A stretch of 34,069 bases of DNA from positions 1-34,069 of the IMG/VR virus record IMGVR_UViG_3300042090_001193; one strand, given 5' to 3'. The translations under genes were made by a program, and so were the position numbers. Below are positions 1,625 to 28,265 of this stretch, one piece after another. A model generated the notes under the pieces. It worked only from the letters and a program-made list of their open reading frames with translations, was not told the origin of the DNA and made no database searches. How positions within the stretch are numbered: position 1 is the first letter of the stretch; every line of letters starts with the position of its first letter. The DNA comes from a virus.

Positions 1625-1803
1625 GTCATGGCCTCGATCAGCAGTTCGACGTGCCGGTCGGTAAAGAGCAGCGTCCGGCCGGCGCTGGCGTAGAGCGGAC
1701 GCCCGGCCGGGTCGGCAGGGTGCCCGCCAAGCCATTCTCGCAGCCAGCGGCGGCTCTTGTGAAGCCGCTTCGCCACCTGTTCCAGTGTATAAACCGGCGT
1801 CAC
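1417..1803 (-). CDS. helix-turn-helix (excisionase-like) protein
   Basis: The first ~60 residues (TLEQVAKRLHKSRRWLREWL...GRTLLFTDRHVELLIEAM) look like a MerR/HTH_17-type winged helix, as in phage excisionases and recombination directionality factors. The start is GTG at 1803, in a GTGA overlap with the preceding HNH gene. The remaining ~67 residues overlap the integrase N-terminus in another frame and are low-complexity. The functional protein may be only the N-terminal domain, or a shift into the integrase frame could exist. A role in excision is inferred from position. Confidence 0.6.
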   Translation of the reverse strand: MTPVYTLEQVAKRLHKSRRWLREWLGGHPADPAGRPLYASAGRTLLFTDRHVELLIEAMTCRLGSSPGATKRRRTSISGAHTSASLLTAAAKLTGDQSLSQCASGSRAKSSEANTIDRKPRLVSSRPS

Positions 1804-2240: not shown

Positions 2241-2407
2241 CAGTTCTTCGCGTCAGGCGCGCGAATGGTGGCGGCGATTAGTTTGCACGCCTCCATTGCA
2301 AGCGGCACGCTCGCCATCATGACCTTTTTGGGAAGGTCCTCCGCGATCCTGGCACAACGCTCGCGTTCGTCGGCGCGGGCCGCTTCAATTTCGGTTTGCT
2401 CAGTCAT
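2240..2407 (-). CDS. small hypothetical protein (55 aa)
   Basis: Begins MTEQTEIEAARADERERCAR and ends ATIRAPDAKN. The N-terminal half is a charged helix and the C-terminal half is more hydrophobic. The stop overlaps the next start as TGATG, so translation is coupled to the HNH gene. The form resembles small phage ORFs of unknown role. Confidence 0.55.
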   Translation of the reverse strand: MTEQTEIEAARADERERCARIAEDLPKKVMMASVPLAMEACKLIAATIRAPDAKN

Positions 2408-2426
2408 GATTGCTCCTTTCGCCGCG

Positions 2427-2648
2427 TCAGTGCGGCATTCCTTCGATCATGTAGCGGACCATCGTTTCGGCCTGCGTGGCATCGAAAAGGTTGGTGCCGC
2501 TAGGCATCGGGTAAAATTCCGGCACACCGTTCCCAGATGATGGTTTTGTGTGTCGTGCAAAACTAATACCCGCGTCTGGACTAAAACTTTCTGGCAGCTT
2601 CCAGCCGAGGAAGCGGTCAACCATGTGCTTGATCTGAGCGTCCGTCAT
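2427..2648 (-). CDS. conserved small phage protein (73 aa)
   Basis: The sequence contains MVDRFLGWKLPESFSPDAGI, SGTNLFDATQAETMVRYMIEG and MPH. This pattern recurs in many proteobacterial prophages as an uncharacterised protein near the integrase or recombination genes. No known activity. It is followed by the 55-aa gene after a short gap. Confidence 0.75.
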   Translation of the reverse strand: MTDAQIKHMVDRFLGWKLPESFSPDAGISFARHTKPSSGNGVPEFYPMPSGTNLFDATQAETMVRYMIEGMPH

Positions 2649-2787
2649 GTTTCATCTCCACCAGTTTGATGGCCTCCTTTGCTTCGCTCTCAGCGACCCG
2701 CCGCAACCGATTATGCAGCGAGTTAGGATCGCGCTCGGCCTGAGCGCGGCGATTATGTTCCCTTATCGAAATTGGTCGCTTCGGCAT
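2617..2787 (-). CDS. small basic hypothetical protein (56 aa)
   Basis: Reads MPKRPISIREHNRRAQAERD and is predicted helical and basic, possibly nucleic-acid binding. It has a strong ribosome-binding site (GAGGAAAAA directly before ATG). It overlaps the start of the 73-aa gene by 32 bases, implying translational coupling. Confidence 0.55.
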   Translation of the reverse strand: MPKRPISIREHNRRAQAERDPNSLHNRLRRVAESEAKEAIKLVEMKHDGRSDQAHG

Positions 2788-2898
2788 TTTTTCCTCACTG
2801 ACGGCGCAGAAGGAGCGTGTGGTTCGTCCCCGCGCGCTTGCGCCCGTGTCGCGCGCGGCGCTGCTTCCGCTTTTGCCTGCATCGACCGGCCTTCGTGC

Positions 2899-3123
2899 TC
2901 ACGGCATAGCCTCCGCTTCGGACTTCGCGCGCAACGGGTGTGATTTCGTCTTGACCGGCCCGCACGTCATGCAAGTGAAATTGAGCAATTCGAGATCGGG
3001 ACGGCTCGGGTGCGGCTCGATGGTCGAAACGCTGATCGGCTTAAAGCATCGCGGGCACGTCGATCTGACTGGAAACTCCACGGCACTCTCGTTGCTGCGC
3101 CGGCGCATCGCCGACTGGTTCAT
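2899..3123 (-). CDS. small zinc-ribbon-like protein (74 aa)
   Basis: Two Cys pairs, CPRC and CMTC, are separated by ~27 residues, giving a probable zinc ribbon. The core is STCPRCFKPISVSTIEPHP. Similar short CPRC proteins are common in Rhizobiales prophages; function unknown. The start at 3123 (MNQSAMRRR) is chosen because everything upstream in frame is R/P/A-rich antisense-like sequence. The true start is uncertain and could be further in. Confidence 0.5.
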   Translation of the reverse strand: MNQSAMRRRSNESAVEFPVRSTCPRCFKPISVSTIEPHPSRPDLELLNFTCMTCGPVKTKSHPLRAKSEAEAMP

Positions 3124-3149
3124 TTCCGAACGCGGACGCAACAAACAAA

Positions 3150-3329
3150 TCACAGACCTGTCAGGAACCGGACGACTGCAAGATTGAGCCCGCGCAGCGC
3201 GGCGGCGAGAACAAAAATGCCGATGATAACGGCGATGATGGCGGGCCAGACCGGCAGCAGGGGCGGCTCGAAGCGCGGCCGCAGCGGATCGAGCGGCGTG
3301 CGTGCGTGGATCTGGCGGCGATAGGTCAC
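3150..3329 (-). CDS. small single-pass membrane protein (59 aa)
   Basis: Starts with GTG (VTYRRQIHART) and has one strong hydrophobic segment, WPAIIAVIIGIFVLAAAL, at about residues 32-49. The start overlaps the preceding stop as GTGA. No family recognised; a membrane-anchored accessory protein is the most that can be said. Confidence 0.5.
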   Translation of the reverse strand: MTYRRQIHARTPLDPLRPRFEPPLLPVWPAIIAVIIGIFVLAAALRGLNLAVVRFLTGL

Positions 3330-3529
3330 GCGGCTCTCCCGGCGGAGAGCGCGATGCCGGCGGCGGCGTCTTCATTTTCACCGCCGCCGATCCCGCTCCC
3401 CGTTAAGGCGGTCTCGCCCGCTCTCAGGGGGCTAGGAGGGATTGAGATATGACCGAGAGCGGGCGAGTAGCCCGCGTCGCCGCAGCGGGCGCGGGTCGGA
3501 AAAGGGAACCGGCCGGCGAGATCAGTCAT
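3326..3529 (-). CDS. uncertain leader ORF (67 aa)
   Basis: Open frame placed directly after the left operator cluster and overlapping the next gene's GTG start (GTGA), which supports translation. The peptide (SIPPSPLRAGETALTG...) is low-complexity and has no visible ribosome-binding site. It also contains a 13-bp inverted repeat (3413-3425/3455-3467). It could be a transcribed leader rather than a protein. Confidence 0.3.
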   Translation of the reverse strand: MTDLAGRFPFPTRARCGDAGYSPALGHISIPPSPLRAGETALTGSGIGGGENEDAAAGIALSAGRAA

Positions 3530-3541
3530 AAACGACCGCTA

Positions 3542-3631
3542 ATCCAAATTTTCTGGATTTGCAAGCGGCCAATCAAAATAATTTGGATCATCCCGACGGG
3601 TCCGGGCGGTCGAAATCCAAAATCTGTGGAT
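3542..3631. promoter_or_regulatory. left operator cluster (three 17-bp operators)
   Basis: Three near-palindromes fit ATCCAA-N5-TTGGAT: 3542-3558, 3572-3588 and 3615-3631. They lie just upstream of the leftward integration operon and at the 3' end of the lipoprotein gene. The same motif recurs at the repressor/Cro intergenic region, so these are the expected lambda-type left operators bound by the XRE repressor and/or the Cro-like protein. Binding is inferred. Confidence 0.7.
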
Positions 3632-3936
3632 TAGTATTGCGGCTTGGCGGCGGTCAGGAGATAGCCGTGCTGCGCCATGCAGCCCTTCACGACGTCGCCC
3701 GCTTGGGCGTCCTGGTTCGATGCTGCGATGCCATCCGTGATCGGATTGCCTGTGTCGTGCGACGTTGCTGCCATCTTGGCCTTCTGCATTTCGCCCATGC
3801 AGGCCGTGGCGTCGAGTTCGAGCTGCGAGGGATCGGTCGGCTTGCCGTCTGCCCGCGCCCAGGTCATCGCTGGCTGCGCCGAAGCGCAGCTGGCGAGCAA
3901 GAGCGCCACCAGCGGCCAGGTGCGATAGCGCCTCAT
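3631..3936 (-). CDS. small phage lipoprotein (101 aa)
   Basis: N-terminus MRRYRTWPLVALLLASCASA is a signal peptide with lipobox LASC (Cys17). The mature part is hydrophilic with two further Cys residues. It starts 1 base after the repressor stop, with GGAGGG nearby, so it is co-transcribed with the repressor and expressed in the lysogen. Such lysogenic-conversion lipoproteins can act in superinfection exclusion; that role here is inference. Confidence 0.65.
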   Translation of the reverse strand: MRRYRTWPLVALLLASCASAQPAMTWARADGKPTDPSQLELDATACMGEMQKAKMAATSHDTGNPITDGIAASNQDAQAGDVVKGCMAQHGYLLTAAKPQY

Positions 3937-3937
3937 C

Positions 3938-4267
3938 CTAGGCCCTCCGTTCGCGCCCGCGCGGCCGTTGCCGGGGCGGCGCATCTGACCCCGGCAATTC
4001 GCCGAGCCGCCGCGCCATATCAATCGAAAGACCGGCGGGATCGCCATCGAACAGATAGCTCCGCGTGAGCCCCTTGATCTTCGAGAGCACAATATCGGCC
4101 AGCTGCCGGCTCAAAGGATGGCCGTTCTCGACATTGTCCCAACGATTTTCGGTAATCCCCAACTTTGTGGCGAAGGCGCGCTTGGTCTCGTAGCCGAGTT
4201 TCTCGCGCAAGCCGCGCAGGCGCTGCGCCAGTTCGGAATTCCTGCCCTCGGGGTCGCGGCCAGCCAT
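3938..4267 (-). CDS. XRE-family phage repressor (CI-like)
   Basis: This 109-aa protein has a lambda-repressor-like HTH in the first ~75 residues (LAQRLRGLREKLGYETKRAF...LGITENRWDNVENG). A basic tail PRQRPRGRERRA follows. It has no S24 autopeptidase domain, so it is shorter than lambda CI. Start ATG 4267 is chosen because upstream starts would run into the operator. It is divergent from the Cro-like gene across operators at 4304-4345, and a further cluster lies at 3542-3631. Expected role: maintenance of lysogeny. Confidence 0.75.
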   Translation of the reverse strand: MAGRDPEGRNSELAQRLRGLREKLGYETKRAFATKLGITENRWDNVENGHPLSRQLADIVLSKIKGLTRSYLFDGDPAGLSIDMARRLGELPGSDAPPRQRPRGRERRA

Positions 4268-4303
4268 CGGCAAAAAGGCTGACTCGACGAGCACTTGTCC
4301 GCT

Positions 4304-4345
4304 ATCAAAACAATTTGGCATCTTGGCAATCCAAGGAATTTGGAT
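4304..4345. promoter_or_regulatory. right operator cluster (two 17-bp operators)
   Basis: 4329-4345 is a perfect ATCCAA-GGAAT-TTGGAT palindrome. 4304-4320 is a degenerate copy whose left part matches the 3572 site. Both lie between the divergent repressor and Cro-like starts. Divergent promoters must be here, but I cannot place -35/-10 boxes with confidence. Confidence 0.75.
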
Positions 4346-4359
4346 TATTTGGTGATTCG

Positions 4360-4590
4360 ATGAAGGATGCCCTGACAACCTCCGCCGACGTGATCGACGT
4401 CCTCGATGGACTCGATGGCGTGCGGCTGCTCACCGGCTGCAAGAGCACCAAGGTCGTGCACAACTGGAAAGCCGCCGGCGTCTTTCCCGCGCGCACCTAC
4501 GTTGTCATGACGTGGGCGCTGCAAAAGAAACGCAAGTCGGCGCCGGCCGCGCTGTGGGGAATGATCCCCATTCCAGCGGAGGCCGCATGA
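4360..4590 (+). CDS. Cro-like small DNA-binding protein (76 aa)
   Basis: The central part LTGCKSTKVVHNWKAAGVFPARTYVVM is the HTH pattern of small Cro-like regulators in Rhizobiales phages (...V.NW...G.FP..TY.VM...L). It ends APAALWGM, also typical. It is divergent from the repressor and has operator sites in its upstream region, so it probably controls the lytic/lysogenic choice. Confidence 0.7.
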   Translation: MKDALTTSADVIDVLDGLDGVRLLTGCKSTKVVHNWKAAGVFPARTYVVMTWALQKKRKSAPAALWGMIPIPAEAA

Positions 4591-4595
4591 CGCGG

Positions 4596-4979
4596 TCAAT
4601 GCAGGAGCGCGAGCGCCGCCTCGATCGGGTTCGCCGCGATCAATTGCGCGGACAGCCACCGGTCGAAATCTCCGCCCGGCGTCACCGAGCCGCGGGGTCG
4701 CGCGATGACGTGAGCGAGTACCTTTTCGCGCACCAGCAACGCGCCATCGCTCCGCACCGGGCGCCAGCGGAAATAGCAGGTCAGAAATGTCTCGCCGAGA
4801 TTGACCAGACCGAGCAGGCCGTGAACCGCAACCGGTTCCATGCAGCCGATATCGATGAGCAGCTGCTCTTCGTGAATCAACAAATAGCTTCCATTTGCGG
4901 CCTCCGTTTCGCGGCTTGGTGCCACGCGGGTACGACTCGGCCATCGCAACCTCTGCGATGGCTGAGCAAGATTGCTCAT
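4596..4979 (-). CDS. hypothetical protein on the opposite strand (127 aa)
   Basis: This minus-strand ORF is convergent with the Cro-like gene. Its interior (MEPVAVHGLLGLVNLGETFLTCYFRW) reads as an ordinary folded protein. The overlapping plus-strand frame is arginine-rich and looks like antisense, so minus is preferred. There is no clear ribosome-binding site at ATG 4979; an internal start near residue 47 is possible. Family unknown. Confidence 0.5.
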   Translation of the reverse strand: MSNLAQPSQRLRWPSRTRVAPSRETEAANGSYLLIHEEQLLIDIGCMEPVAVHGLLGLVNLGETFLTCYFRWRPVRSDGALLVREKVLAHVIARPRGSVTPGGDFDRWLSAQLIAANPIEAALALLH

Positions 4980-5029
4980 AATGGCAATAGCGCCGTTGCC
5001 CAGTGTGGATATCGGGGTGCAGTGGGCAA
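4940..5029. repeat. cluster of three inverted repeats upstream of the 85-aa regulator
   Basis: Three inverted repeats are visible: GCCATCGCA/TGCGATGGC (4940-4948 and 4954-4962, 5-nt loop), TGAGCAA/TTGCTCA (4963-4969 and 4972-4978), and TTGCCCA/TGGGCAA (4996-5002 and 5023-5029). They cover the divergent 5' region between two genes, so operator sites or a bidirectional control region are likely. Confidence 0.5.
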
Positions 5030-5089
5030 AGCATGTGTAATTCCGCCGCTATCCGAGCGGCGGCGGTGTGTCCGGGTAGGAGTTGCGTC

Positions 5090-5347
5090 ATGTCCGAATC
5101 GTTGCGTGAGTTTTCCACAGCGTCGCTCAAAATCGACGGAAGATTTTCGACCAACACGGAAGAAAACTTCCGGCCTGAGCTTTTTGGCGCCGTCGCTCGG
5201 ATTGTCTGGCCCGAAAAGCCTGACGTCCGCATCGCCATCATCGCCGGATGTTCGCCGCGCGCGGCGCGGGAATACCTCAACGGCAAGGTCGCGCCGCCGG
5301 CGATTGTCATCGCGGCAATGTTTTTGGAAATCACCAAGCGGCATTGA
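5090..5347 (+). CDS. HTH-like early regulator (85 aa)
   Basis: The core RIVWPEKPDVRIAIIAGCSP followed by RAAREYLNGKVAPPAIVIAA matches small lambda-repressor-like phage proteins (WP.K....A..AG.S.RAA...L.G...P.....A). Start ATG 5090 has a clean AGGAG site nine bases upstream. It is the first gene before the DGR and follows the inverted-repeat cluster. DNA-binding function is inferred. Confidence 0.6.
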   Translation: MSESLREFSTASLKIDGRFSTNTEENFRPELFGAVARIVWPEKPDVRIAIIAGCSPRAAREYLNGKVAPPAIVIAAMFLEITKRH

Positions 5348-5371
5348 ATTCAACCGAGGGAGTTTCGGGCT

Positions 5372-6286
5372 ATGAACCGGCATGTGAAGATAAAGAGAAA
5401 GAAAGCAACCGCCATTCTGGTCAAGAAAGACGCGGGGGAACCCGCGCTCTTGGTCGTAGGCGCAAGCGCCATTGCGATCTGCGCCGGTACGATCATCACG
5501 GGTCGCAAGTTCGCCAAGAATACTCCGGTCAAGTTGCCCGAGGGTGGCCTCGAGATCGGCTGCGATTATGGCGTCGTGGTCGCCGCAGTCGGTGCGCCGA
5601 CGGCGGAAAAGCTGACCGGCATTCCGATCGCTCCTCAATTCATCGGCGGCTTTCATTTTGCGCCAGGCGGCAACGCGACCTCGCGCGCCGGCGGCGATGC
5701 CAAGCCGGCGATCAATCCCCGTTCGGTTTGGGATCTCAATTTCCGGCCGGCCTGTCCCGATCCACGCGGTATGGTGCTGGTCGAAGGCCCGCGGGGCCCG
5801 TTCTGGTGCGACATCTATCTGCTCGGCGTCAATCATGTTGCCGACGGCACCACCAGCCGCCATGGTGCGACGATCGCCGACGGCAATGATCCCCCGGCAA
5901 AACCCGATGGCGGTCATTTCGGCAAGCTTGATTACGAGACTGCCGTCGCCGTCATGAAGCATCACCAGAAACAGTTGCTGGCGCTCGATGAGTTCTTCGC
6001 CGCCGCCTATGGCGTGGCGGAAAAGACGGCACATGATGGCGATCCGCGAACGACTGGCCTTGATGCGCCGCGGACCAGCAAATTCGGTCTGATGCAGGCG
6101 ACGGGCAACATGTGGGTATGGGGCCACGACGGCGATCCCGATACTCCGCGCGCTTCCATCTTCGGCGGTTCCTGGATCGGCGGCGGCGGCGCGGGCTCGC
6201 GCTACGCGGACGTCGGCGGCTGGCCCGGGGACTCGTACGGCAGCTTGGGCGCTCGCGGCCGCAGTGACCACCTGCAACTTGATTAG
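5372..6286 (+). CDS. DGR variable (target) protein
   Basis: This 304-aa protein is diversified by the adjacent retroelement. Its C-terminal half has the C-type-lectin/FGE-like pattern of DGR targets: ACPDPRGMVLV, FWCDIYLLGVNHVADGT, LLALDEFFAAAYGVAE, SKFGLMQATGNMWVWGHD, FGGSW...AGSRY...GARGRSDH. VR spans residues ~259-300 and carries the ligand-binding surface in this fold. The N-terminal ~120 residues are probably the attachment or trimerisation part. GAGGGAG precedes ATG 5372. Diversified phage proteins of this type usually act in host recognition; here the gene is far from the tail genes, so its location in the virion is unproven. Confidence 0.9.
   Translation: MNRHVKIKRKKATAILVKKDAGEPALLVVGASAIAICAGTIITGRKFAKNTPVKLPEGGLEIGCDYGVVVAAVGAPTAEKLTGIPIAPQFIGGFHFAPGGNATSRAGGDAKPAINPRSVWDLNFRPACPDPRGMVLVEGPRGPFWCDIYLLGVNHVADGTTSRHGATIADGNDPPAKPDGGHFGKLDYETAVAVMKHHQKQLLALDEFFAAAYGVAEKTAHDGDPRTTGLDAPRTSKFGLMQATGNMWVWGHDGDPDTPRASIFGGSWIGGGGAGSRYADVGGWPGDSYGSLGARGRSDHLQLD
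6146..6272 (+). repeat. DGR variable repeat (VR)
   Basis: 127 bp, colinear with TR at an offset of 572 bases. It differs from TR at 16 positions and every one is an adenine in TR (14 A to G, one A to T, one A to C). No other base differs. The 3' part (from TTGGGCGCTCGC onward) is GC-rich and invariant up to the final AAC/CAC, as expected for the initiation-of-mutagenic-homing (IMH) segment. VR and TR diverge abruptly after GACNACC. Confidence 0.97.
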
Positions 6287-6305
6287 CCGGCGCGACAGCG
6301 CCGGC
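6286..6305 (+). promoter_or_regulatory. DGR target-recognition hairpin
   Basis: A perfect 8-bp stem GCCGGCGC/GCGCCGGC with a GACA loop begins at the last base of the target-gene stop codon, 13 bases after VR. In the Bordetella phage BPP-1 DGR, a short stem with a GRNA tetraloop just downstream of VR is needed for efficient retrohoming. This hairpin meets that description in stem length, loop and place. Confidence 0.85.
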
Positions 6306-6313
6306 GCTCAACG

Positions 6314-6712
6314 ATGATCGTTAGAGACGACAATCTGCAAACCGACGTGCTGGCGATCGTCGAAAAATATGAGGTCTTCGTGAATTATCTCTACCCGATT
6401 CTACAGCGCAGCCCACGCCAGCACGGCGTCATTCGCGACAAGGTGCTGGCCGCGCTGTTCGAGCCGATCGGCGATCTCTATCACGCCGCGAAGTCGCGGC
6501 AGGTGTCGCGGCTCCATGTCGTCGATGCCCGCTTCGCGACGCTGCGGTCGTATCTGCGCTTCCTCGTCAGGAACACCGTCAAGATCATAACGCCTGCTCA
6601 GCACAGGACCGCACTCGCGCTCATTGCTGAGCCCGGCGCGATGCTCGGCGCCTGGCAGCGGAAGCTTATCGGTTCCGGCGCGGCGACGCGCCGGATAGGG
6701 CAGGTGGGGTAA
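6314..6712 (+). CDS. avd: accessory variability determinant (Avd)
   Basis: The 132-aa protein is almost entirely alpha-helical, with VEKYEVFVNYLYPILQR, VIRDKVLAALFEPIGDLYHA, SRLHVVDARFATLRSYLRFL and a basic C-terminus. This is the four-helix-bundle Avd (bAvd/S23-like) pattern. Avd forms a pentameric basic barrel that binds the RT and template RNA. It sits between VR and TR, the usual order. No strong ribosome-binding site is visible at ATG 6314. Confidence 0.88.
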   Translation: MIVRDDNLQTDVLAIVEKYEVFVNYLYPILQRSPRQHGVIRDKVLAALFEPIGDLYHAAKSRQVSRLHVVDARFATLRSYLRFLVRNTVKIITPAQHRTALALIAEPGAMLGAWQRKLIGSGAATRRIGQVG

Positions 6713-7020
6713 CGATGCCGCGCGCTTCCATCTTCGGCGGTTCCTGGATCAACGACGACAACGCGGGCTCGCGCTACGCGAACGTCGACAACTGGCCCGA
6801 GAACTCGAACGACAACTTGGGCGCTCGCGGCCGCAGTGACAACCGGTTTTCGGCTCGGCGGCGATCACGGTCCCGCCGGCCGGCCACATTAGATCAAGGT
6901 CGGTGGTCAGCCCGCGTGTCCTGCTTCGGCGAATACGTTTCGCGGTCCGGCAGAGCGGGGCGTAGCGGGGCGTTCCCGTCGAGACCCGCGGCCGGCACCT
7001 TCTCAGTCAGTGAGCGCGTC
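6713..7020 (+). ncRNA. DGR template RNA region (TR plus spacer)
   Basis: This ~300-base interval between avd and the RT start holds TR and a 176-base GC-rich spacer with no separate gene. In characterised DGRs the template RNA includes TR and the downstream spacer, which primes and folds for cDNA synthesis. The boundaries here are inferred from gene ends. The frame is open throughout (see the RT entry). Confidence 0.7.
6718..6844 (+). repeat. DGR template repeat (TR)
   Basis: This is the source copy of VR, containing 26 adenines, many in AAC and GAC codons positioned to be diversified. 16 are replaced in the current VR. It lies between avd and the RT. TR is expected to be transcribed as part of a template RNA extending on both sides and copied into mutagenised cDNA. 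Confidence 0.97.
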
Positions 7021-8001
7021 ATGGGGAAGCGTTACCGAAATCTCATCGGCAAGATCACGTCGCCTACGACGATGGCAGAGGCCTACCGTCTGACAGCGCG
7101 CGGCAAGCGGCTCACCGGCGGTTATCTCGGCTTTAAGGAATTCGACGCGCTCAATCTGGCCGAGCTCGGCCGCGACATGGCGCTCGGCACTTATCTGCCC
7201 GGGCAACCGACCGAGTTCTTTGTGCTCGATCCGAAACGACGCCTGATTTCGGCGCTGCCGTTTCGCGATCGGATCGCGCAGCAAGCGCTGTGCCTGGTCA
7301 TAGGCCCGATCTTCGATCGCGCGCTTCTGCCGCGCAGCTTCGCCTGCCGACCCGGCAAGGGAACGCACGCCGGCGCGATTGCGCTGCAGGCCGATTTGCG
7401 CCGGCTCTCTAAACGAGGACCGGTCTATTTTCTCAAGACGGATTTCTCGGGCTACTTCGCGTCGATCGAGCACGGCGCGTTGTGGAAATTGATCGACGCC
7501 AAGATTAGCTGCCGCGCCACGCGAAGACTTATCGAGACGATGGTGCCGCGTCATGGCATCGGGCTTCCGATCGGCAGCCTCACATCGCAAATCTTCGCCA
7601 ACGTTTATGCCGGCGCGCTCGACCGGCACTTGCAACAGACGCTCGGCGAGGATTTCTGGTTTCGCTACATGGACGATCTTGTTGTTCTGGGCGATAGCTC
7701 CCGGCATCTGCGCGCGGTCAAGGAGAGCATCGAAGATTTTTCCCGGTGCGTTCTCGGACTGCGTTTCTCGAAATGGTCGCTCGCGCCGGCCCATCGCGGC
7801 GTGAATTTTCTCGGCTATCGGATCTGGCCGACGCATAAGCTTTTGCGTCGTGACAACGTTACGCGCGCCCGGCGGAAGATCGCCGGCTTCCGCGCCGGCG
7901 GCGACCACCGTCGGCTCGAAATGTTTGTGGCGTCATGGTTGGGGCACGCGCGTTTCGCGGACGCCGCCAATCTGATTCGAAGTCTCGACATCGCCGCGTA
8001 G
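7021..8001 (+). CDS. DGR reverse transcriptase
   Basis: The 326-aa RT shows motifs in order: KTDFSGYF with catalytic D141, GLPIGSLTSQIFANVY (the SQ form in place of QG that marks DGR RTs) at residues 181-196, FRYMDDLVVLG with YMDD at 216-219, and NFLGYRIWP near the thumb. It makes adenine-mutagenised cDNA from TR with Avd. Start ATG 7021 gives MGKRYRNLIGKI, a usual DGR-RT beginning. An in-frame ATG at 6715 would add 102 residues and translate TR itself; I consider that less likely. Confidence 0.92.
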   Translation: MGKRYRNLIGKITSPTTMAEAYRLTARGKRLTGGYLGFKEFDALNLAELGRDMALGTYLPGQPTEFFVLDPKRRLISALPFRDRIAQQALCLVIGPIFDRALLPRSFACRPGKGTHAGAIALQADLRRLSKRGPVYFLKTDFSGYFASIEHGALWKLIDAKISCRATRRLIETMVPRHGIGLPIGSLTSQIFANVYAGALDRHLQQTLGEDFWFRYMDDLVVLGDSSRHLRAVKESIEDFSRCVLGLRFSKWSLAPAHRGVNFLGYRIWPTHKLLRRDNVTRARRKIAGFRAGGDHRRLEMFVASWLGHARFADAANLIRSLDIAA

Positions 8002-20863: not shown

Positions 20864-21085
20864 GACGCAATCGATGATCTCGGCAGCGCCGATGACGCCG
20901 CCGAAGCGCATCGTCCACGTCTTAGCGAACGCGGGCAGTTCCGCGCTGCTCATCTTTAGCCCGGCGAGAATGAGAACGGGGCCGCGATAGCGCCATCGCT
21001 GGCTTCGATTCTCCACGTCCTTGCTGTCGAACACGATTGCGTGCGCCCAGGGTTGCCGGACGGTCAGTAGCTTGACGATCTTCAT
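20696..21085 (-). CDS. ASCH-domain protein
   Basis: In 129 aa, LLTVRQPWAHAIVFDSKDVE, NRSQRWRYRGPVLILAGLKM and GGVIGAAEIIDC are the classical ASCH (PUA-like) pattern. ASCH domains are proposed RNA-binding or RNA-processing modules. It is the last gene of the leftward accessory operon and overlaps the convergent gene by 168 bases at its 3' end. Confidence 0.85.
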   Translation of the reverse strand: MKIVKLLTVRQPWAHAIVFDSKDVENRSQRWRYRGPVLILAGLKMSSAELPAFAKTWTMRFGGVIGAAEIIDCVSEYPSKWFEGPFALVLRDRRAVPFVPWRGSQGLANAPQELLQRIDDNLLREYLSS

Positions 21086-21956
21086 GCTGGTCTCTTTTGA
21101 ATTCGAGTTTGATCTCTGACTGGGTGGCTACGCAACGCAGATCGTGCTCCATCTGCAAGATATGGGCACGCACAAGAGAAAGTTTATCCGCCGCCAGCTT
21201 CACGCGATCGGGCGACACGCGAAGCGCCGCGACGCATTCGCCGTCCTTGAAGCCCGCCGCCACCATCGAGACGATCGCCGCGATCTTGCTTTCGAGACGC
21301 GTCATCGTCGCGAGGTCTTTCTTCGACGCGACCGGCGCCGTAGCGAAGGCGTCGAGTTGCGCGACGGCGTCGCGAAGCGCGATGCCGGCGTGGCGGACCT
21401 GCTCGACGGTCCGCAGTTTGCCGCTCGCAATGTCCCGCACGATGCGCGTCTGATGCTCGCGCGGCGCAAGCCGCACGGCCCAGCCCATCGAGACAGGAAG
21501 CGTTCCGGCAGCGACCAGGCGCTGCACGTCCGGGGCGAGGTCGAGGAGATCGATGCGATTCTGCACGATCTGCGGCCCGCTCAGTTCGAGCTCCTCGACG
21601 ATGCGCGCGATGCTGTAGTCCCGGTCGATCAGCGAACGATAGGCGTGCGCCTCCTCGATCGGGTTCATGTCGCGCCGTTGCAGATTCTCGACGATGGCTC
21701 GCAACTGCATTTCGGCCTCGTCGATCTCGACGATCTCGGCGCGGATGCTTTTCGCGCCGAGCAGCTGGTGCGCGCGGAAGCGGCACTCGCCCGCGACGAT
21801 CATATAGCGACCGTCCTCGAGCGGCCGAAGCGTGATCGCCTGGATGAGCCCGCGCCGTTTGATCGATGCCGCCAGCCGCTTGATGTAGTCCTCGGGGAAC
21901 GTCTCGCGCGGCTGCTTGGGATTGCGGACGATCTTGTCGAGCGGGATCATCGGCAT
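20922..21956 (-). CDS. ParB/KorB-type DNA-binding protein (344 aa)
   Basis: Residues 1-100 are a full ParB N-terminal domain (IPLDKIVRNPKQPRETFPED, GRYMIVAGECRFRAHQLLGA, IVENLQRRDMNPIEEAHAYR). An HTH follows (YSIARIVEELELSGPQIVQN). Compared with chromosomal ParB the C-terminus is different and helical. The last ~55 residues overlap the ASCH gene in another frame, an unusually long overlap (164 bases); the real C-terminus could be affected by a sequence error. It probably binds specific sites in partition or regulation. Confidence 0.82.
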   Translation of the reverse strand: MPMIPLDKIVRNPKQPRETFPEDYIKRLAASIKRRGLIQAITLRPLEDGRYMIVAGECRFRAHQLLGAKSIRAEIVEIDEAEMQLRAIVENLQRRDMNPIEEAHAYRSLIDRDYSIARIVEELELSGPQIVQNRIDLLDLAPDVQRLVAAGTLPVSMGWAVRLAPREHQTRIVRDIASGKLRTVEQVRHAGIALRDAVAQLDAFATAPVASKKDLATMTRLESKIAAIVSMVAAGFKDGECVAALRVSPDRVKLAADKLSLVRAHILQMEHDLRCVATQSEIKLEFKRDQHEDRQATDRPATLGARNRVRQQGRGESKPAMALSRPRSHSRRAKDEQRGTARVR

Positions 21957-22201
21957 GGCGATGACCCCGCAAGAGCGCGCGCGACGGCGTCGTGGCTCCA
22001 AAGCGCGAACTGGCCTTTGAGCGTGGACCCGAAACCCGCGAGCTCCTCGACGATGACTGGCGCACGCGCATCGTCGCCGAACACGCGATACACGCGAAGC
22101 GGCCGTCCGGCAAAGTGGAACACGGCGCCGGCGGGGATCGTCGCGCGGCGCTCGATGGCGGGAACCGAGAAAAGATCGTGAGGGTGATAGGGCACTCTCA
22201 T
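21947..22201 (-). CDS. hypothetical protein (84 aa)
   Basis: GAVFHFAGRPLRVYRVFGDD and APVIVEELAGFGSTLKGQFA read as a small beta-rich domain. It overlaps the ParB start by 10 bases and begins in an ATGA overlap with the 73-aa gene. No family recognised. Confidence 0.6.
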   Translation of the reverse strand: MRVPYHPHDLFSVPAIERRATIPAGAVFHFAGRPLRVYRVFGDDARAPVIVEELAGFGSTLKGQFALWSHDAVARALAGSSPCR

Positions 22202-22419
22202 GACTCGTCTCCCGCCTTGCGCAGATCGCGCAGCACCACGTCGATGGAAAGCCAGCCGGTTTCTTCCCAGCGGACGGTCGCGGTCGAACTGTGGTGAATG
22301 GCTTCGAGCCGCCCGATATGGCGTTCGTCGGCGACGTCATAGACGCGATCGCCGAGACGTGCGCGCCGCCAGTAATTCTCCGGCAATGCGCGTTCGCGTA
22401 TCTCCGCGCCGGTTTTCAT
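22198..22419 (-). CDS. hypothetical protein (73 aa)
   Basis: Start ATG 22419 has an ideal CACAAGGAGATCATC leader, the same ribosome-binding context as the other hairpin-linked genes. LGDRVYDVADERHIGRLEAI and ATVRWEETGWLSIDV suggest a small SH3-like beta-barrel. Unknown function. Confidence 0.65.
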   Translation of the reverse strand: MKTGAEIRERALPENYWRRARLGDRVYDVADERHIGRLEAIHHSSTATVRWEETGWLSIDVVLRDLRKAGDES

Positions 22420-22679
22420 GATGATCTCCTTGTGGTAGGGTTCGGTTGCCGACACGTGCCGCACTTCCTTGTGGGTGCGGCGCGCGACGGCCACGGGGCG
22501 GGACCTGCAAGTCGCCGCCCCACTTCATTTGCGGCCGAGAGAAAGAACGCGTCCGGCAAGCTCTCAGCGAACGCGATCAGTTCGCGCAGCGAAAACGACG
22601 TGCGTCCCGTCTGCGCGATGAAGCGTTGCATGAGGGAGCGCGTCCAGAACGGGTCGATGGCGAGTTCGCGGCGGGTCAT
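22416..22679 (-). CDS. hypothetical protein (87 aa)
   Basis: The N-terminal 55 residues (MTRRELAIDPFWTRSLMQRF, TSFSLRELIAFAESLPDAFF) read as a real helical domain. The remainder is P/R-rich and contains a UUGCAG stem-loop (copy 5) within its coding region. It overlaps the 73-aa gene by ATGA. Confidence 0.5.
   Translation of the reverse strand: MTRRELAIDPFWTRSLMQRFIAQTGRTSFSLRELIAFAESLPDAFFLSAANEVGRRLAGPAPWPSRAAPTRKCGTCRQPNPTTRRSS
22496..22520 (-). promoter_or_regulatory. UUGCAG-loop hairpin, copy 5
   Basis: Plus-strand GGGCGGGAC (22496-22504), loop CTGCAA (22505-22510), then GTC-G-CCGCCC (22511-22520). The pairing is 9 bp with one bulge. On the mRNA the loop is UUGCAG. It lies inside the 87-aa gene, ~100 bases before the 73-aa gene, with CACAAGGA motifs following. 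It is the weakest of the five copies. Confidence 0.5.
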
Positions 22680-22795
22680 AGCGACACCACGAGCGAGACA
22701 ACGCCAAGCACGGCGATGATGCACGCCGTCAACACGATCACCACGGCGTCGATCAGATAGGGTGAGTAGGCTCGCAAGATTCGGTAGCGAAACAT
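22676..22795 (-). CDS. small membrane protein (39 aa)
   Basis: MFRYRILRAYSPYLIDAVVI continues hydrophobic through LTACIIAVLGVVSLVVSL, one long transmembrane helix. A very good CACACAAGGAGATCGACC leader precedes ATG, and it is headed by hairpin copy 4. It overlaps the 87-aa gene by ATGA. Function unknown. Confidence 0.7.
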   Translation of the reverse strand: MFRYRILRAYSPYLIDAVVIVLTACIIAVLGVVSLVVSL

Positions 22796-22825
22796 GGTCG
22801 ATCTCCTTGTGTGTGAAAAAGACGA

Positions 22826-22849
22826 AGCCCGCCGCTGCAACGGCGGGCT
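22826..22849 (-). promoter_or_regulatory. UUGCAG-loop hairpin, copy 4
   Basis: Plus-strand AGCCCGCCG (22826-22834), loop CTGCAA, CGGCGGGCT (22841-22849): a perfect 9-bp stem. On the mRNA it is followed by TTCGTCTTTTT, so it could also terminate or attenuate after the ParB gene, and then by CACACAAGGAG and the ATG of the 39-aa gene. Confidence 0.8.
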
Positions 22850-22871
22850 CCGTTTCAGATACGCGTGACGT

Positions 22872-24546
22872 TTAACGCTTGCTCTTGCCCTTAGACTTGC
22901 TCTTGCCCTTCGCGCCGGGGCCGTCATAGGCCGTGACGCGAAGCTCTTTCGGCAGCCAGCCCTTCGACGCGACGTTGGCAATCGCGAACTTGGCGATCTC
23001 GGGACGCTTCTTGTCCCGAAGCTTGCGCGCCTCGTCGGCATTGACCGCGGCCGCGATGGCCTCAAGCGTGAGACCCTTCGGCGCGCGGGTGAAATAACCC
23101 TTCGCGTCGAATACCGCCCGGAGCGCGGCGTTCATCACCTTCGGCGAGATCGCATTGGCGATCGTGTCGTAGGCTTTCATGATCGTGTCGGGCGCGGAAC
23201 TATATTTGCTCTCCCAACGGATCTGAGACGCCACGATGCGGGCGAGCAGCGAGGAAAGGCCGGACAGCTTTTCCGTGGTGAGCGCCGTCTTGATCGCCTT
23301 GTGGTACTGCACGCGAAGATCGTCGCGCAGCGCGTTGGTGAGCGTCATGCCGCCCGACTTTTTTGCCGCGGCGCTTTTCTTCTTGACGATCTTGCCGGTG
23401 TCCTCGTCGATCTGGCGAGTCTTGCCTTGCTCGATCGGCATGGTGCGACCCCGATCAATAAAGATCGTACCATCGTGGGCCAGGCGCACGAAGCATCCAG
23501 CCTTCGCCTTTTGCTTCGGGGTTACGGAGCGCGCAAGAATGGCGGCCTTGAGCGCGTCATGTTCCTCGGACGCATTCTCGCTCTGATCGTAATCGATCTC
23601 CTCGTCCTCGACGATGACCCTGAGCTCCTTGAGCCGCTTGATCTCCGCCGGCGTCGGTTTGAACTGCGCCTGCAGCTGACCGTAGCGCCATTGGTCGTTC
23701 GGGATTTCCGCGGTCGCCCACGCCCATCCCTCGTCCTTCACCAGTCTGTCGCAGGTTTCGATAAGCTTCTCCTGCCACATCGTGGCGAGCAAAGCCTCGT
23801 CGGAAACGATGTGATCGCTGCCGAAAAGGTCGCGCGTCACCTTGCCGCCGCGGGCTTCATACGCCTCGATGCCGACGGCATTGAGCGTCTTGCCAGCATC
23901 GCTGACCTTGAGCGCCTCCTTCACGTCGTCGGTGGAGATGCGCCCGCCATTGTAGGCGCTCTTTTTCAGCTTGGCATAGAGCTTCGCCTGGTCCTTCTTG
24001 ACGGGACAGAGCGTGAAGGCTTGCGCCGTCTCCGCTTTGATCTCGCCTTCGAGCCATGCGTCGAGGATCGCGTCGTCGAGGTCGCCGAGTGCAAGCACCT
24101 GGCGTGCGGCTTTTTCAGCGATGCCGAAATGTTCGGCGATCGCCGTCACGTCGAGTGGGGCTTCCTTGTCGGCGTGCAGCTGCGCGAAGGCGCGGTACTG
24201 ATCGACCGGGTGCATGTCCTCGCGGATGACATTGAGCGCGAGGCTGCGTTCGCGGGCTTGCGCGTCGGTCGCGTCGATTACCTTGACGGGGATCGGCGCG
24301 TTCGCGGCCCACTCGCCCGCTTTGACGAGCGCCTGGGCGGCTTCAAGACGCTTGCCGCCGTCGGTGACGGCGAAGCCCTTGCCGTTCGGCCGCACGATCA
24401 AGCGGCTGTTGAATGCCGATGCTTCTGATCGAGGCGACGAACGCGGCCGTCGCGCCGCGACCGGTGCGGCGGACGTTGACCTTGCCGTCGATATGAAGCT
24501 GGTCGAGCGGCAGTGTCGTGGTTGACATGAGTTCTGACTTAGACAT
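22872..24546 (-). pseudogene. large ParB-like protein gene with an apparent frameshift
   Basis: The N-terminus (MSKSELMSTTTLPLDQLHID, ATAAFVASIRSIGIQQPL) lies in one frame. The continuation (IVRPNGKGFAVTDGGKRLEA and ~500 more residues) lies in another. One extra base near 24400-24401 (AA on plus, TT on mRNA) explains the break; removing it gives one 557-aa protein with a ParB fold, an HTH (VTAIAEHFGIAEKAARQVLA) and a basic repeat tail KGKSKSKGKSKR. It could be a real inactivating mutation, a sequence error, or, less likely, a programmed shift. Preceded by hairpin copy 3. Confidence 0.75.
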
Positions 24547-24568
24547 TTGGAAAGTCTCCGTTGTGTGA

Positions 24569-24588
24569 ATCGCGTCTGCAAACGCGAT
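24569..24588 (-). promoter_or_regulatory. UUGCAG-loop hairpin, copy 3
   Basis: Plus-strand ATCGCGT (24569-24575), loop CTGCAA (24576-24581), ACGCGAT (24582-24588): a perfect 7-bp stem. On the mRNA it is followed after one base by CACACAACGGAGA and the ParB ATG. The stem sequence differs wholly from other copies while the loop is identical. Confidence 0.85.
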
Positions 24589-24641
24589 GGGGCGGCGCCC
24601 CGTTGCGCGGCCCCTGTAGGGCCGCGCCGTCGGGAGGTCGC

Positions 24642-24875
24642 TTAGAGCGCGTGAACGTAGAAGCCGTCCGCGCGCTCGACGAGTTCGAGAAGGCGAAACG
24701 CAATGCCGCTTTGAATGGCGGCGTCAATGCGCTGTCGCGTCCAGCCGTAGGGATCAACGCCCGGCCTGCCGCCCATCTGATGAAGCAGCGTGCCGTATTT
24801 CATCGACTCGGTGGCGTCCCATACAATGCAGCGCCGGCGAACTGCATTCGCGTCGGTCGTGTCGAGCGTCGTCAT
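24642..24875 (-). CDS. hypothetical protein (77 aa)
   Basis: ATGA-coupled to the SANT-like gene. RRRCIVWDATESMKYGTLLH and GYGWTRQRI-like text (PYGWTRQRIDAAIQSGIAFR) are visible. The family is not recognised. Confidence 0.6.
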   Translation of the reverse strand: MTTLDTTDANAVRRRCIVWDATESMKYGTLLHQMGGRPGVDPYGWTRQRIDAAIQSGIAFRLLELVERADGFYVHAL

Positions 24876-25702
24876 GTCGAAAGAGCTTCGCCGGCGATGA
24901 TCTGCACGAACGCAAACTTGTCGACCTTGCGAAGATCGATGCGTTCCAGATGATCGAGCAGATAGCGGCGAAGGTCCGCCGGCGTGATCGACCAGTGATC
25001 GCCGCCTTGCTGCGGCAGTCGTTTGGTCTTTCGCTTGGTCGCCTTGAGATCGCCCTGGATGATCTCGCGCGTGACGGTCTTGCTGTCCACGCCGAGAATC
25101 TTCGAGATTGCGGTCGCGCTCAATGTCTCCCGATAGCGCCGGGAGAGATCGAGGCGCTTGGCGCGAACCATGATGGCGGTCGGCGATCGCGAGAAACCGT
25201 GCTCGCGAAATATCTCCGCACATTTATCCACGTCGTGAAGCGGGACCTTCTTCATCAACTCGTTCTCGGCCGCGGTCCACGGCGGTTCCTTCTTGTGCGG
25301 GATCACAAGCCCGAGCGCGATGGCCCGCTTGGTCACCCACCAGCGCGGCACCTTCAATCGATCGGCGAAGGCGTTGCATTCGCCTTTCTTCTTGCCATCG
25401 CCGTTCTGATAGAATTCCCGTAGCGCATCGTCGAAACCTTCCGGCCGCGGGATTTTCTTTCTGCTCAACGTCGAGGTAAGCCCAAGCTTGCCGGCCTGGA
25501 CATAGACGCCGCTCGGCGTGCGATGCTCCGGCAGATGCGCAAGACAGGCGTCCGCGCCGCCATCCGGATAATAGGTCTTGATGACTTCGATCTCGGCGTC
25601 GGTCCAGAACCGTTCGTGACGCACGCCGGGAACGTACGGCGTCGAGAGCCGCGGGTGATGTTCGCGGCGCTTTTTGAAAGATACAGCTGCAAGCCCGCTC
25701 AT
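24872..25702 (-). CDS. SANT/Myb-like DNA-binding protein (276 aa)
   Basis: HERFWTDAEIEVIKTYYPDG and PWTAAENELMKKVPLHDVDK are two SANT/Myb-like Trp-containing HTH repeats. Each is followed by a short R-rich helix. A third HTH follows (LSATAISKILGVDSKTVTRE) with ITPADLRRYLLDHLERIDLR at the end. Probably a sequence-specific DNA-binding protein. The ATG overlaps the HerA stop (25699-25702). Confidence 0.7.
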   Translation of the reverse strand: MSGLAAVSFKKRREHHPRLSTPYVPGVRHERFWTDAEIEVIKTYYPDGGADACLAHLPEHRTPSGVYVQAGKLGLTSTLSRKKIPRPEGFDDALREFYQNGDGKKKGECNAFADRLKVPRWWVTKRAIALGLVIPHKKEPPWTAAENELMKKVPLHDVDKCAEIFREHGFSRSPTAIMVRAKRLDLSRRYRETLSATAISKILGVDSKTVTREIIQGDLKATKRKTKRLPQQGGDHWSITPADLRRYLLDHLERIDLRKVDKFAFVQIIAGEALST

Positions 25703-26964
25703 GACTGCATTCCTTTCTCGATGCGCACGGCGCGCTTGTCGCCGTCGCCGGAGAATTCGAGAACGCCGTATTGATCGAGCAGCGCGAGCGCGGCGGCGAT
25801 CTCGCTCTTGGTGCGGTTCAGATGCTTGCCGAGATCGTCAACGCGCGCGCCCTCCGGAGCGAGCTTGGCGAGCGCGCCCCATATCCGGCCCGCATCGGCA
25901 AACCCCGGCTCGCGGATGAACTGCCGAATCTGACGAAGCGCGAGCGGCCGGGTGTTGTCGGCCATCGTTTGCTGATCCGCCGCGGTCGCGGCAAGGAGCG
26001 CGTCGAGATCGAGCAGACGCGCGGCGTCGCCCGGCGCACGTGCCGCCGGCGCTTTCAATTCCGGTGCGGCGCCGACGTGAAACGTCTCGACGGGTCCCAC
26101 TTTGAGAACGGCGGGGCTGGTCGAGAACGCGGGACCAACCACGACGAAATCTCCCGGCGCGAGCATGGGCAGGCGATCGAAGCCCTTGCGCGCGTCCCAA
26201 CCGATGGTCTCGGCCGCGCGGCGAATGTCGAGATCGAGCGTGTTGAGCCCGACCATAAAATTGAGCGCCTCGGAAACGACGGACTTCGCCAGCCGCGCGA
26301 GCCGCTGTGTCGCAAGAATGCCCGCGAGTCCGCGTTTTCTGCCGCGGCTCATGAGATCGGTGACCGTGGCGATCGACGCCTTGCGCACGGAGGTCGCTTC
26401 GGTGTAGCCGCCGAACGGCGCGAACAGATGCGCTTCGTCGATGGCGACGATGGTCGGGTGCCAATGCTCGCGCGGTGCCGCGATCAGTGCCGAGACGAAA
26501 GAGGTCATCGCCTTCATCTGATCGTCGCGGTCGAGCTCGGAAAGATCGAGAACGACGGATGCGCGATGCTCGCGCGCCCGGCCGGCGGCAAGGGCGAGCG
26601 TCGCCATGTCGAGGCGGTGGCCCTCGAGGTGAAGCAAGCCCAGCTTGTCGGCGAGTTGCTTAAACTCGCCTTCGGGATCGATCACGATCTGCTGCACTTG
26701 ATCGTGCGTCTGTTCGATCAGCCGGCGCAATGTCCACGACTTGCCCGCGCCGGATGCTCCCTGAATGAGCATGCGACCCTCGATCAGCTTGCCGAGATCG
26801 ATGCCGATCTGCATGCCGCTCTCGGCGGTGCCGATATGAACGTCGCTGGCGCGAATGCCGGGGAACTTGACGACGGTCTGCACCGCACTCTTGGCGGCGC
26901 CGGCGAAGCGGCGATCACCCAGGCTGGCAGCCATGCGATCTTCCGGTGAAAGTGGCTTTCTCAT
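25699..26964 (-). CDS. HerA/FtsK-like (DUF87) ATPase
   Basis: In 421 aa: Walker A GASGAGKS (69-76), VIDPEGEF soon after, Walker B TIVAIDEAHLF (171-181), and sensor-like ILATQRLARLAKSV. This is the HerA/DUF87 DNA translocase pattern. The C-terminal 100 residues contain a winged helix (LGKHLNRTKSEIAAALALLD). HerA-type pumps translocate dsDNA and occur in repair, conjugation and antiphage systems. Start ATG 26964 has GAGGAGA upstream and hairpin copy 2 ahead of that. Confidence 0.82.
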   Translation of the reverse strand: MRKPLSPEDRMAASLGDRRFAGAAKSAVQTVVKFPGIRASDVHIGTAESGMQIGIDLGKLIEGRMLIQGASGAGKSWTLRRLIEQTHDQVQQIVIDPEGEFKQLADKLGLLHLEGHRLDMATLALAAGRAREHRASVVLDLSELDRDDQMKAMTSFVSALIAAPREHWHPTIVAIDEAHLFAPFGGYTEATSVRKASIATVTDLMSRGRKRGLAGILATQRLARLAKSVVSEALNFMVGLNTLDLDIRRAAETIGWDARKGFDRLPMLAPGDFVVVGPAFSTSPAVLKVGPVETFHVGAAPELKAPAARAPGDAARLLDLDALLAATAADQQTMADNTRPLALRQIRQFIREPGFADAGRIWGALAKLAPEGARVDDLGKHLNRTKSEIAAALALLDQYGVLEFSGDGDKRAVRIEKGMQS

Positions 26965-26983
26965 TTTCAGTCTCCTCGTGTTG

Positions 26984-26999
26984 TGCGGCTGCAACCGCA
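26984..26999 (-). promoter_or_regulatory. UUGCAG-loop hairpin, copy 2
   Basis: Plus-strand TGCGG (26984-26988), loop CTGCAA (26989-26994), CCGCA (26995-26999). On the mRNA it is followed by CAACACGAGGAGACTG and the HerA ATG. This is the shortest stem of the set. Confidence 0.8.
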
Positions 27000-27055
27000 T
27001 TGTGAACTGAGTCGGATCAGATAAGTTTGTTTGGTCGAATTGTTCACCAAACAAT

Positions 27056-27658
27056 TCACGCGTAGCTGCTCCAATATCGCTCGCCGCTGCCAAGCCAGGC
27101 ATTGCGGACGCTATCAATGCGCACGCTGCCATCGGCGCGCGCTCGACGGACGATTGCGACTCCGGTTTCGTCGCCGTCGTAACGCGGCGAAAGATATTTT
27201 CCGGGGATCGGCTTGCATTTGCCGCTCATGAATCCGGTTTCGCTCCGCTCTTGCGCAAGTTCGCGGAGCTCGACGGTGTGCGGGCCGACGATGCGCGTCA
27301 CCTCGAAATATTCCACGTTGGTCTGATCGTAGCCCCACGAGGTGTGCAGGATCGCGCCGATGACAAGCGGATGCGGCGCGCTGCGCTCGGTTTTCTTTTT
27401 GGCGCGGTACTCGGCATGTGATCGCCGCCGTGCGAGAAATTCCGCGATGCAGGCGGCGCGGCGTTCCTCGGTCTTGAAGGTGTAGTTCCAGTCGGGCTTG
27501 TTCGCCTTGCCGTGAAAGGCAATTGCGCCAAGCGCGCGCTGGCCGTTGAGCTTTAGCCCCGGCACGTCATAGAGAAAGACGGCGGCGTCGGTATCGCCGC
27601 AGTCAAATGGTGTGGCATTCTTCGGGACATAAAAGTCGCGCGGGAAAGTGTGACGCAT
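27056..27658 (-). CDS. hypothetical protein (200 aa), first gene of the leftward accessory operon
   Basis: MRHTFPRDFYVPKNATPFDC, FKTEERRAACIAEFLARRRS and HPLVIGAILHTSWGYDQTNV are visible. The C-terminal half looks beta-rich (TSWGYDQTNVEYFEVTRIVG resembles small phage domains of the DUF-type 'WGYEQTN' kind). Start ATG 27658 has CACACAAGGAGAACGAA upstream. Frame extension further upstream is basic and unlikely to be coding. Function unknown. Confidence 0.65.
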   Translation of the reverse strand: MRHTFPRDFYVPKNATPFDCGDTDAAVFLYDVPGLKLNGQRALGAIAFHGKANKPDWNYTFKTEERRAACIAEFLARRRSHAEYRAKKKTERSAPHPLVIGAILHTSWGYDQTNVEYFEVTRIVGPHTVELRELAQERSETGFMSGKCKPIPGKYLSPRYDGDETGVAIVRRARADGSVRIDSVRNAWLGSGERYWSSYA

Positions 27659-27676
27659 TTCGTTCTCCTTGTGTGT

Positions 27677-27696
27677 TTGCTCGCTGCAATGAGCAA
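27677..27696 (-). promoter_or_regulatory. UUGCAG-loop hairpin, copy 1
   Basis: Plus-strand TTGCTC (27677-27682), loop GCTGCAAT, GAGCAA (27691-27696). On the mRNA the 6-nt UUGCAG core sits in an 8-nt loop. It is followed by ACACACAAGGAGA and the ATG of the 200-aa gene. Confidence 0.8.
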
Positions 27697-28265
27697 GGTG
27701 CAGGATCGCACCCCTGCGCCGCGGCTCTGACTTCGCGGCGCTAGGCTGAGATCCTTCCCGAACTGTTCGCGGCATCGGTGACTGCGGCTTGCGTTTGTCT
27801 CTGTGACTGCGTGCAGGCGTGTCGGTTGCGGCGAGAGTTCGGGCTCTCAGAATGAAGAATCCGGTTGCCTTCTTCGGTTCGATCTGTCGGACAGCGTTCG
27901 CGGTCTCGCTACTGCGGCCGGGATTATGTTCGCGTTCGGACGGCGCACTCGCAAGCGCGCGGGTCTTATTTGCTTCTGTCTGAGACCGGGGCGGGTGCGG
28001 CTGTAGGTTCGTGAACTTTCGCCGCTGAGTATCTTCGCTCCGTTCGGGCTTTTTTCGGATTCGATTTTCAAACAGCGGATCGCTTTGCGATCTTTTTTTC
28101 TTGATGGACGTTCTGCTTCTCAGCGCATGTCGGCGTCGGGGAGAAACGAGTCGATCTTTTTGCAACGTCGCTTGATCGATTGATGCTGATTCTAAGGAAT
28201 TCGGGGCGGAAGCCTATGGGGACTAAATTCCCCTGCCCCAAAAGCAGCTTCGGGAGTGCTCGAAA
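27697..28265. other. gene-poor region between the divergent accessory operon and terS
   Basis: About 570 bases without a convincing ORF on either strand; open frames here are R/S/P-rich. It should contain the promoter of the leftward operon and perhaps one for terS. GAAGAA/TTCTTC (10-nt loop) near 27853 and the terminator-like hairpin at 28078 are the only clear structures. A small RNA ending at 28099 is possible. Confidence 0.4.
28078..28099 (+). terminator. intrinsic terminator-like hairpin
   Basis: GATCGC-TTT-GCGATC followed by seven T. Short stem but a clear U-run. A rightward transcript would have to start inside the 27.7-28.0 kb gap or come from antisense transcription of the accessory operon. 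Confidence 0.5.

Follow-up and report, generated by a model that had tools for sequence, protein, structure and literature searches.

We have discovered a family of five small hairpins with a single constant loop in the leftward ParB/HerA operon of a phage known from IMG/VR virus record IMGVR_UViG_3300042090_001193. The record was analyzed over its full length of 34,069 bases, referred to here as the window; it is classed as 'linear' or carries no label for completeness. The hairpins display the loop UUGCAG on stems that have kept nothing except their pairing, and one of them stands before every operon start that does not overlap the preceding gene, and before no other predicted start. They are a real family of RNA elements, selected at the RNA level, lineage-specific and start-associated, and most likely serve as a shared switch for making the proteins of the operon.

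Hairpins and ribosome-binding sites at operon starts

The non-structural operon spans 27658 to 20922 in the leftward direction and contains, in order, a gene for a 200-aa protein, a HerA-like ATPase gene, two genes with overlapping stops and starts, the ParB-like gene E, small genes and the ParB gene J. All five hairpins lie on the minus strand. Copy 1 (27677..27696, loop 27684-27689; TTGCTC-a-TTGCAG-c-GAGCAA) has 6 base pairs (bp) beyond an A.C mismatch beside the loop and is located upstream of the start at 27658 of the first gene (27056..27658, minus strand; phrog_37844). Copy 2 (26984..26999; TGCGG-TTGCAG-CCGCA) has a perfect 5-bp stem upstream of the start at 26964 of the HerA-like ATPase gene (25699..26964, minus strand), and copy 3 (24569..24588; ATCGCGT-TTGCAG-ACGCGAT) a perfect 7-bp stem upstream of the start at 24546 of gene E (22872..24546, minus strand). 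In copy 4 (22826..22849), a perfect 9-bp G+C-rich Watson-Crick stem carries the TTGCAG loop and is followed by TCGTCTTTTT, which is intrinsic-terminator-like, and then by a start at 22795. Copy 5 (22495..22521; GGGGCGG-c-GAC-TTGCAG-GTC-CCGCCCC) consists of 3 bp, one bulged C and 7 bp, and lies within a predicted small open reading frame (ORF) at 22416-22679.

Copies 1-4 are followed by an extended ribosome-binding site, namely CACACAAGGAGA at 27664..27675 (copy 1) and at 22802..22813 (copy 4), CAACACGAGGAGA at 26971..26983 (copy 2) and CACACAACGGAGA at 24555..24567 (copy 3), all on the minus strand. In these copies the CACACAAGGAGA-like site follows the hairpin within about 1-14 nt and is itself followed by an ATG. 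The stem ends 18-22 nt ahead of the ATG in copies 1, 2 and 3, which also have a nearly constant spacing between hairpin and Shine-Dalgarno sequence; in copy 4 it ends 30 nt ahead. The Shine-Dalgarno sequence is mostly unpaired in folds of the isolated leaders. For copy 5, the nearest CACAAGGAG start is the ATG at 22419, about 60 nt downstream, where a CACAAGGAGA site (22425..22434, minus strand) precedes a small gene. Between copy 5 and that start, a 7-bp hairpin at 22449-22473 (GCCGCAC..GTGCGGC, minus strand) has a second CACAAGGA in its loop. The minus strand also forms strong hairpins that lack the UUGCAG loop near upstream gene ends, at 24590-24641 (GCGCGGCCCCTACAGGGGCCGCGC-like, before copy 3) and at 27020-27060 (TTGTTTGGT..ACCAAACAA, before copy 2).

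Genes were predicted using a simple codon model, and the 60 bases upstream of 50 start positions were inspected. A hairpin together with CACACAAGGAGA or a close form of it was present at 4/4 non-overlapping operon starts (27658, 26964, 24546 and 22795), and the remaining operon starts overlap the preceding gene. None of the other predicted starts had a hairpin, whether of a rightward gene or of a gene in the leftward group at 129-4925, and no structural-gene start had either the hairpin or a CACACAAGGAG site. An initial annotation of the window had described five UUGCAG-loop hairpins on this strand, one for each separately translated block, four of them followed by an extended ribosome-binding site and an ATG, and one (copy 4) with a terminator-like tail; this description was borne out.

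Selection on RNA structure

The sequence TTGCAG occurs 24 times in the window, compared with 16.0 ± 4.1 expected, and a flanking helix was found at five of these sites, which are the hairpins described above. The other 19 sites, which serve as an internal control, had 0-1 pair. TTGCAG hairpins of at least 5 bp were absent from 60 shuffles of the window. In a test confined to start regions, in which the loop was left free (any loop of 6-8 nt), one hexaloop was common to four start regions, whereas in 400 shuffles of all start regions the best shared loop occurred at one start (390 shuffles) or at two (10 shuffles). The background was also low elsewhere: in about 4.2 Mb around relatives of the phage's genes there were about three TTGCAG hairpins of at least 5 pairs, none of them before a CACACAAGGAG site, versus three perfect ones in the 34-kb window.

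When the copies were aligned by their loops, no column was invariant apart from the six loop bases. All seven stem pairs changed on both sides between copies, and paired cells amounted to 82.9%, compared with 44.4 ± 7.3 after partners were shuffled. The covariation score was 1.029 versus 0.260 for shuffled partners, and 0/500 shuffles scored as high; shifting the partner by one base destroyed the signal. The sample is small (five sequences), yet the copies are located at separate places and have no detectable stem similarity beyond pairing. Stem energy alone is weakly unusual in copies 1 and 2 (z -1.3 and -1.1), and the evidence thus rests on the shared loop and on covariation. Divergence of the stems under an identical loop had been read in the annotation as strong evidence for selection on an RNA (or cruciform) structure, and the compensation of 7/7 pairs upholds selection on RNA. 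Chance was rejected as an explanation on three grounds, the restriction of the helix to five of the 24 sites, the covariation and the placement at starts.

Leaders in related phages and prophages

The exact element seems to be confined to this phage, or to close relatives missing from the collections searched, since both the pattern scans and the relatives were negative. A scan of 2.9 million IMG/VR contigs for TTGCAG..CACACAAGGAG yielded 72 stretches, none with a convincing hairpin before a start, and the element was not found in 385 alphaproteobacterial genomes. Relatives were sought with the first gene, which gave 80 loci, with the large terminase gene TerL (64 loci), with E and J, and with HerA, which gave 1 locus at first and 58 viral plus 80 genomic loci once an alignment was used; no relative found by any of these genes carried a TTGCAG leader.

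The closest relative found, L308 (IMGVR_UViG_3300005529_000093), is the sole one with the E-I-J part of the operon, and its identity to the window is 60% for TerL, 49% for E, 63% for J and 61-63% for I. Its leftward operon contains five copies of a different, longer leader (3401-7300, minus strand), laid out as GAGCGCAGCACAGA, a variable hairpin, TCGATGGTGCGC..GCACC, ACAAGGAGAC and the start codon. All of these leaders form a conserved basal helix with internal loops and a variable top, folding much better than their shuffled versions (z -3.4 to -6.0), and their 3' strand can alternatively pair with the GCACC beside the Shine-Dalgarno sequence in a structure that is ~6-10 kcal/mol less favourable. 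The copies before E and before I match the slots of window copy 3 and of the stretch with copies 4-5. A pattern for the Shine-Dalgarno-proximal hairpin of the L308 leader occurred in no other IMG/VR record.

A covariance model built from copies 1-4 of the window recovered all four of them there. When the model was run over 1.33 Mb of relatives, the top two matches were L308 leaders, one before gene E (E value 0.013) and one before the first gene (E value 0.086), and four L308 leader regions were among the model's 13 matches. This match hints at kinship, and only hints at it because it rests largely on the ribosome-binding site and its spacing. The covariance and pattern searches that the annotation had called for ranked the L308 leaders first and returned no relative with the same loop. 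The annotation had named loss of loop identity in relatives as refuting its proposal; across phages the identity is indeed lost, L308 having another leader, but it stands within this phage.

The leader of the first gene includes a further block at 27697..27754 (minus strand; GGATCTCAGCCTAGCGCCGC...GGGGTGCGATCCTGCACC), for which two exclusive pairings are possible in the window. As GGATCTCAGCCT(A/T)GCGCCGC, the block is free of mismatches only in the window and in L308 (7348, minus strand) among all loci compared; its first 20 bases are common to both. A model match before the first-gene copy of another locus, L008, was rejected as an unrelated terminator-like hairpin. An apparent leader family in L277 was likewise set aside as a 9-bp tandem repeat, which forms a long run of 9-bp units (GCGAGGGAC / GCGATGGCC) at 6172-6650 (plus strand).

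Repeated start leaders were also found in Rhizobiaceae prophages with a related HerA gene, at +729, +2097, +4295 and +6075 in L160, at +736, +2099 and +6075 in L161 and near +6540 in L158. In several copies the stems differ and the loop is AGAGG throughout, with CCGCCCGTC(A/G)NGGAG adjoining; some copies are without the AGAGG loop. The pattern is present in 7 of 394 genomes of the family. This evidence is weaker than that from the window because much of the variation between genomes lies between orthologous copies. The Rhizobiaceae leaders show an independent parallel, with the same kind of design.

Proposed mechanism and alternatives

The hairpins are probably RNA operators through which one trans-acting factor adjusts how translation of the operon is initiated. 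Each leader combines a hairpin, in which the stem keeps pairing only and the loop keeps UUGCAG, with a short A/C-rich linker that is unpaired and with a strong ribosome-binding site. In this model, the helix holds out the loop at the upstream margin of the region bound by the 30S subunit. The factor, which may be a phage or host RNA-binding protein or, less likely, a small RNA, would read the loop and set translation initiation of all gene blocks together, and genes without their own hairpin would follow through overlapping stop and start codons. From the upstream edge of the 30S site, such a factor could block or recruit, acting in repression or in activation. Since the sites lie at translation starts and have coupled genes behind them, the step under control is most simply taken to be translation initiation. 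The preservation of the helix with free stem letters, the fixed loop, the sense strand and the similar distance to the start suggest, by analogy with the MS2 operator and boxB, an RNA-binding factor that reads the loop. L308 has a five-copy structured leader of its own in its counterpart of the operon, with copies before E and I among others, and this also speaks for the proposal.

Several observations weigh against it. Copy 5 sits inside a predicted ORF, and the hairpin of copy 1 is absent from the predicted minimum-energy fold in longer context. The Shine-Dalgarno sequence lies outside the hairpins, which do not cover it, so that simple masking is not the mechanism. No relative with a UUGCAG loop was found in the collections searched. 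Finally, no factor emerged: the product of the first gene belongs to no family in NCBIfam or Pfam, and its fold is without a clear match. Its predicted structure (predicted local distance difference test, pLDDT, 95) had no PDB match at E <= 0.001, and the model therefore neither supports nor excludes this product as the factor. The many homologues of the product in phages that lack these hairpins argue against such a role.

A more specific version of the proposal is tentative. Here the factor would be a phage-encoded, sequence-specific RNA-binding regulator that reads the UUGCAG loop on any stem and governs translation of the entire ParB/HerA operon, and related phages and prophages of alphaproteobacteria would each carry their own fast-changing leader code (the UUGCAG loop here, the basal helix in L308 and AGAGG loops in Rhizobiaceae). 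We regard this as possible, though doubtful.

The alternative that survives best, and is nonetheless unlikely, holds that these are 5' or intergenic hairpins of a generic sort, which shield or insulate segments of the mRNA through processing or stability, and that the common loop is a relic of the copies' shared descent. Polycistronic mRNAs often have hairpins at the ends of their segments, and the gaps of this operon also contain hairpins without the loop. Shared descent, however, predicts more similar stems, whereas every stem pair has diverged and no loop position has, and mRNA stability requires no fixed loop.

Direct contact between RNAs, in which the loops pair mutually or with a small RNA carrying CUGCAA, appears quite improbable. 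Base-pairing partners would fix the loop letters and free the stem, and UUGCAG is nearly palindromic, since it can pair with itself if two G.U pairs are allowed. Selection for kissing, however, would more probably have produced UUGCAA, and no partner RNA was found. The sole match to Rfam families above the curated gathering threshold in the whole window was Phage_DGR (6853-6996), the RNA of a diversity-generating retroelement (DGR), and the hairpins were unmatched.

There is very little to recommend intrinsic terminators or attenuators between genes. Copy 4 is strongly terminator-like, with a G+C-rich stem and then a U run, but copies 1, 2, 3 and 5 lack the U run and so fail that combination, and termination requires no fixed loop sequence; with the U run at copy 4 only, terminators were rejected as a general explanation.

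Least probable of all are DNA-level sites, that is, operators, promoters or cruciforms, as proposed for the extended start-associated sequences (ESAS) of Cluster K, the nearest described kind by position, which have been interpreted as promoter or operator sites (PMC3203893, PMC11373665). In the window the stems share nothing except pairing, no sigma-70-like promoter pattern was found at any leader (other promoter types were outside this search), and the elements occur in a single orientation, always sense and before starts; DNA operators were rejected on these grounds. The cruciform that the annotation had offered as an alternative is less favoured, because the helix is kept without its sequence, and only on the sense strand before starts.

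Other features of the window

Apart from the operon, the window encodes a terminase, a portal protein and other head genes, together with further rightward accessory genes. The DGR (5372-8001, plus strand) comprises an Mtd-like tail protein (5372-6286), a small gene, the Phage_DGR template RNA noted above and a reverse transcriptase (7021-8001). Within the operon, the frame of gene E is broken near 24400 in the assembly; the start at 24546 and its leader are in a different frame from the main ORF, through either an assembly error or a real break. The small gene I and the ParB gene J (20922..22201, minus strand) form the end of the operon, and both have counterparts in L308.

Comparison with known systems

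A literature search on repeated hairpins before phage starts or on UUGCAG found nothing relevant. The start-associated sequences (SAS) and ESAS of Cluster K mycobacteriophages are repeated, start-associated, located at non-structural genes and lineage-specific (PMC3203893), and a similar start-associated set has been described in Cluster EF Microbacterium phages (PMC7302621). For ESAS, the authors state that the differences between repeats do not support RNA pairing (PMC3203893), and promoter-like hexamers were recognized in them in later work (PMC11373665). The window elements resemble SAS and ESAS in being repeats joined to an extended ribosome-binding site, in lying before non-structural genes, mostly in larger intergenic gaps, and in having a consensus specific to a phage group; the restriction to non-structural starts with intergenic gaps that characterizes SAS and ESAS is found here as well. 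They differ from SAS in that the 13-bp GGGATAGGAGCCC at the ribosome-binding site is replaced by CACACAAGGAGA-like sites, with no shared consensus. ESAS are 17-bp imperfect inverted repeats without RNA compensation and with promoter-like hexamers, whereas the window stems are strongly compensated and have no promoter-like site. Because RNA pairing is kept and no promoter-like site is present, the window elements are not ESAS, despite their like position.

The MS2 coat-protein and T4 gp43 operators are each a hairpin that covers the Shine-Dalgarno sequence or start of one gene and is read by a phage protein. The window hairpins resemble them in having recognition letters in or near the loop, in a stem that needs pairing more than sequence and, putatively, in the control of translation initiation. 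They differ in lying upstream of an open Shine-Dalgarno sequence, with the start codon outside, and in being present at four or five sites. The likeness to coat-protein or RegA-type translational control by one RNA-binding factor, which the annotation had drawn, is conjectural. The boxB of lambda nut is likewise a small hairpin with a constant loop, is read by a small phage N-type protein and acts with boxA near promoters in antitermination. The window sites are instead located at the ribosome-binding site of each block, which argues against the nut type.

Start-associated repeats of actinobacteriophages have been described since 2011, and RNA pairing there was judged unlikely. The clear RNA signature in the window makes the question of what reads start-associated repeats testable with a short hairpin as bait. 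Such leaders might also supply small RNA tags, together with the proteins that bind them. The closest parallels are the L308 and Rhizobiaceae leaders, which, like those of the window, are structured repeats before the starts of related ParB operons and have other sequences. This suggests that tailed phages with ParB/HerA operons more widely carry structured start leaders that change in sequence from one relative to the next.

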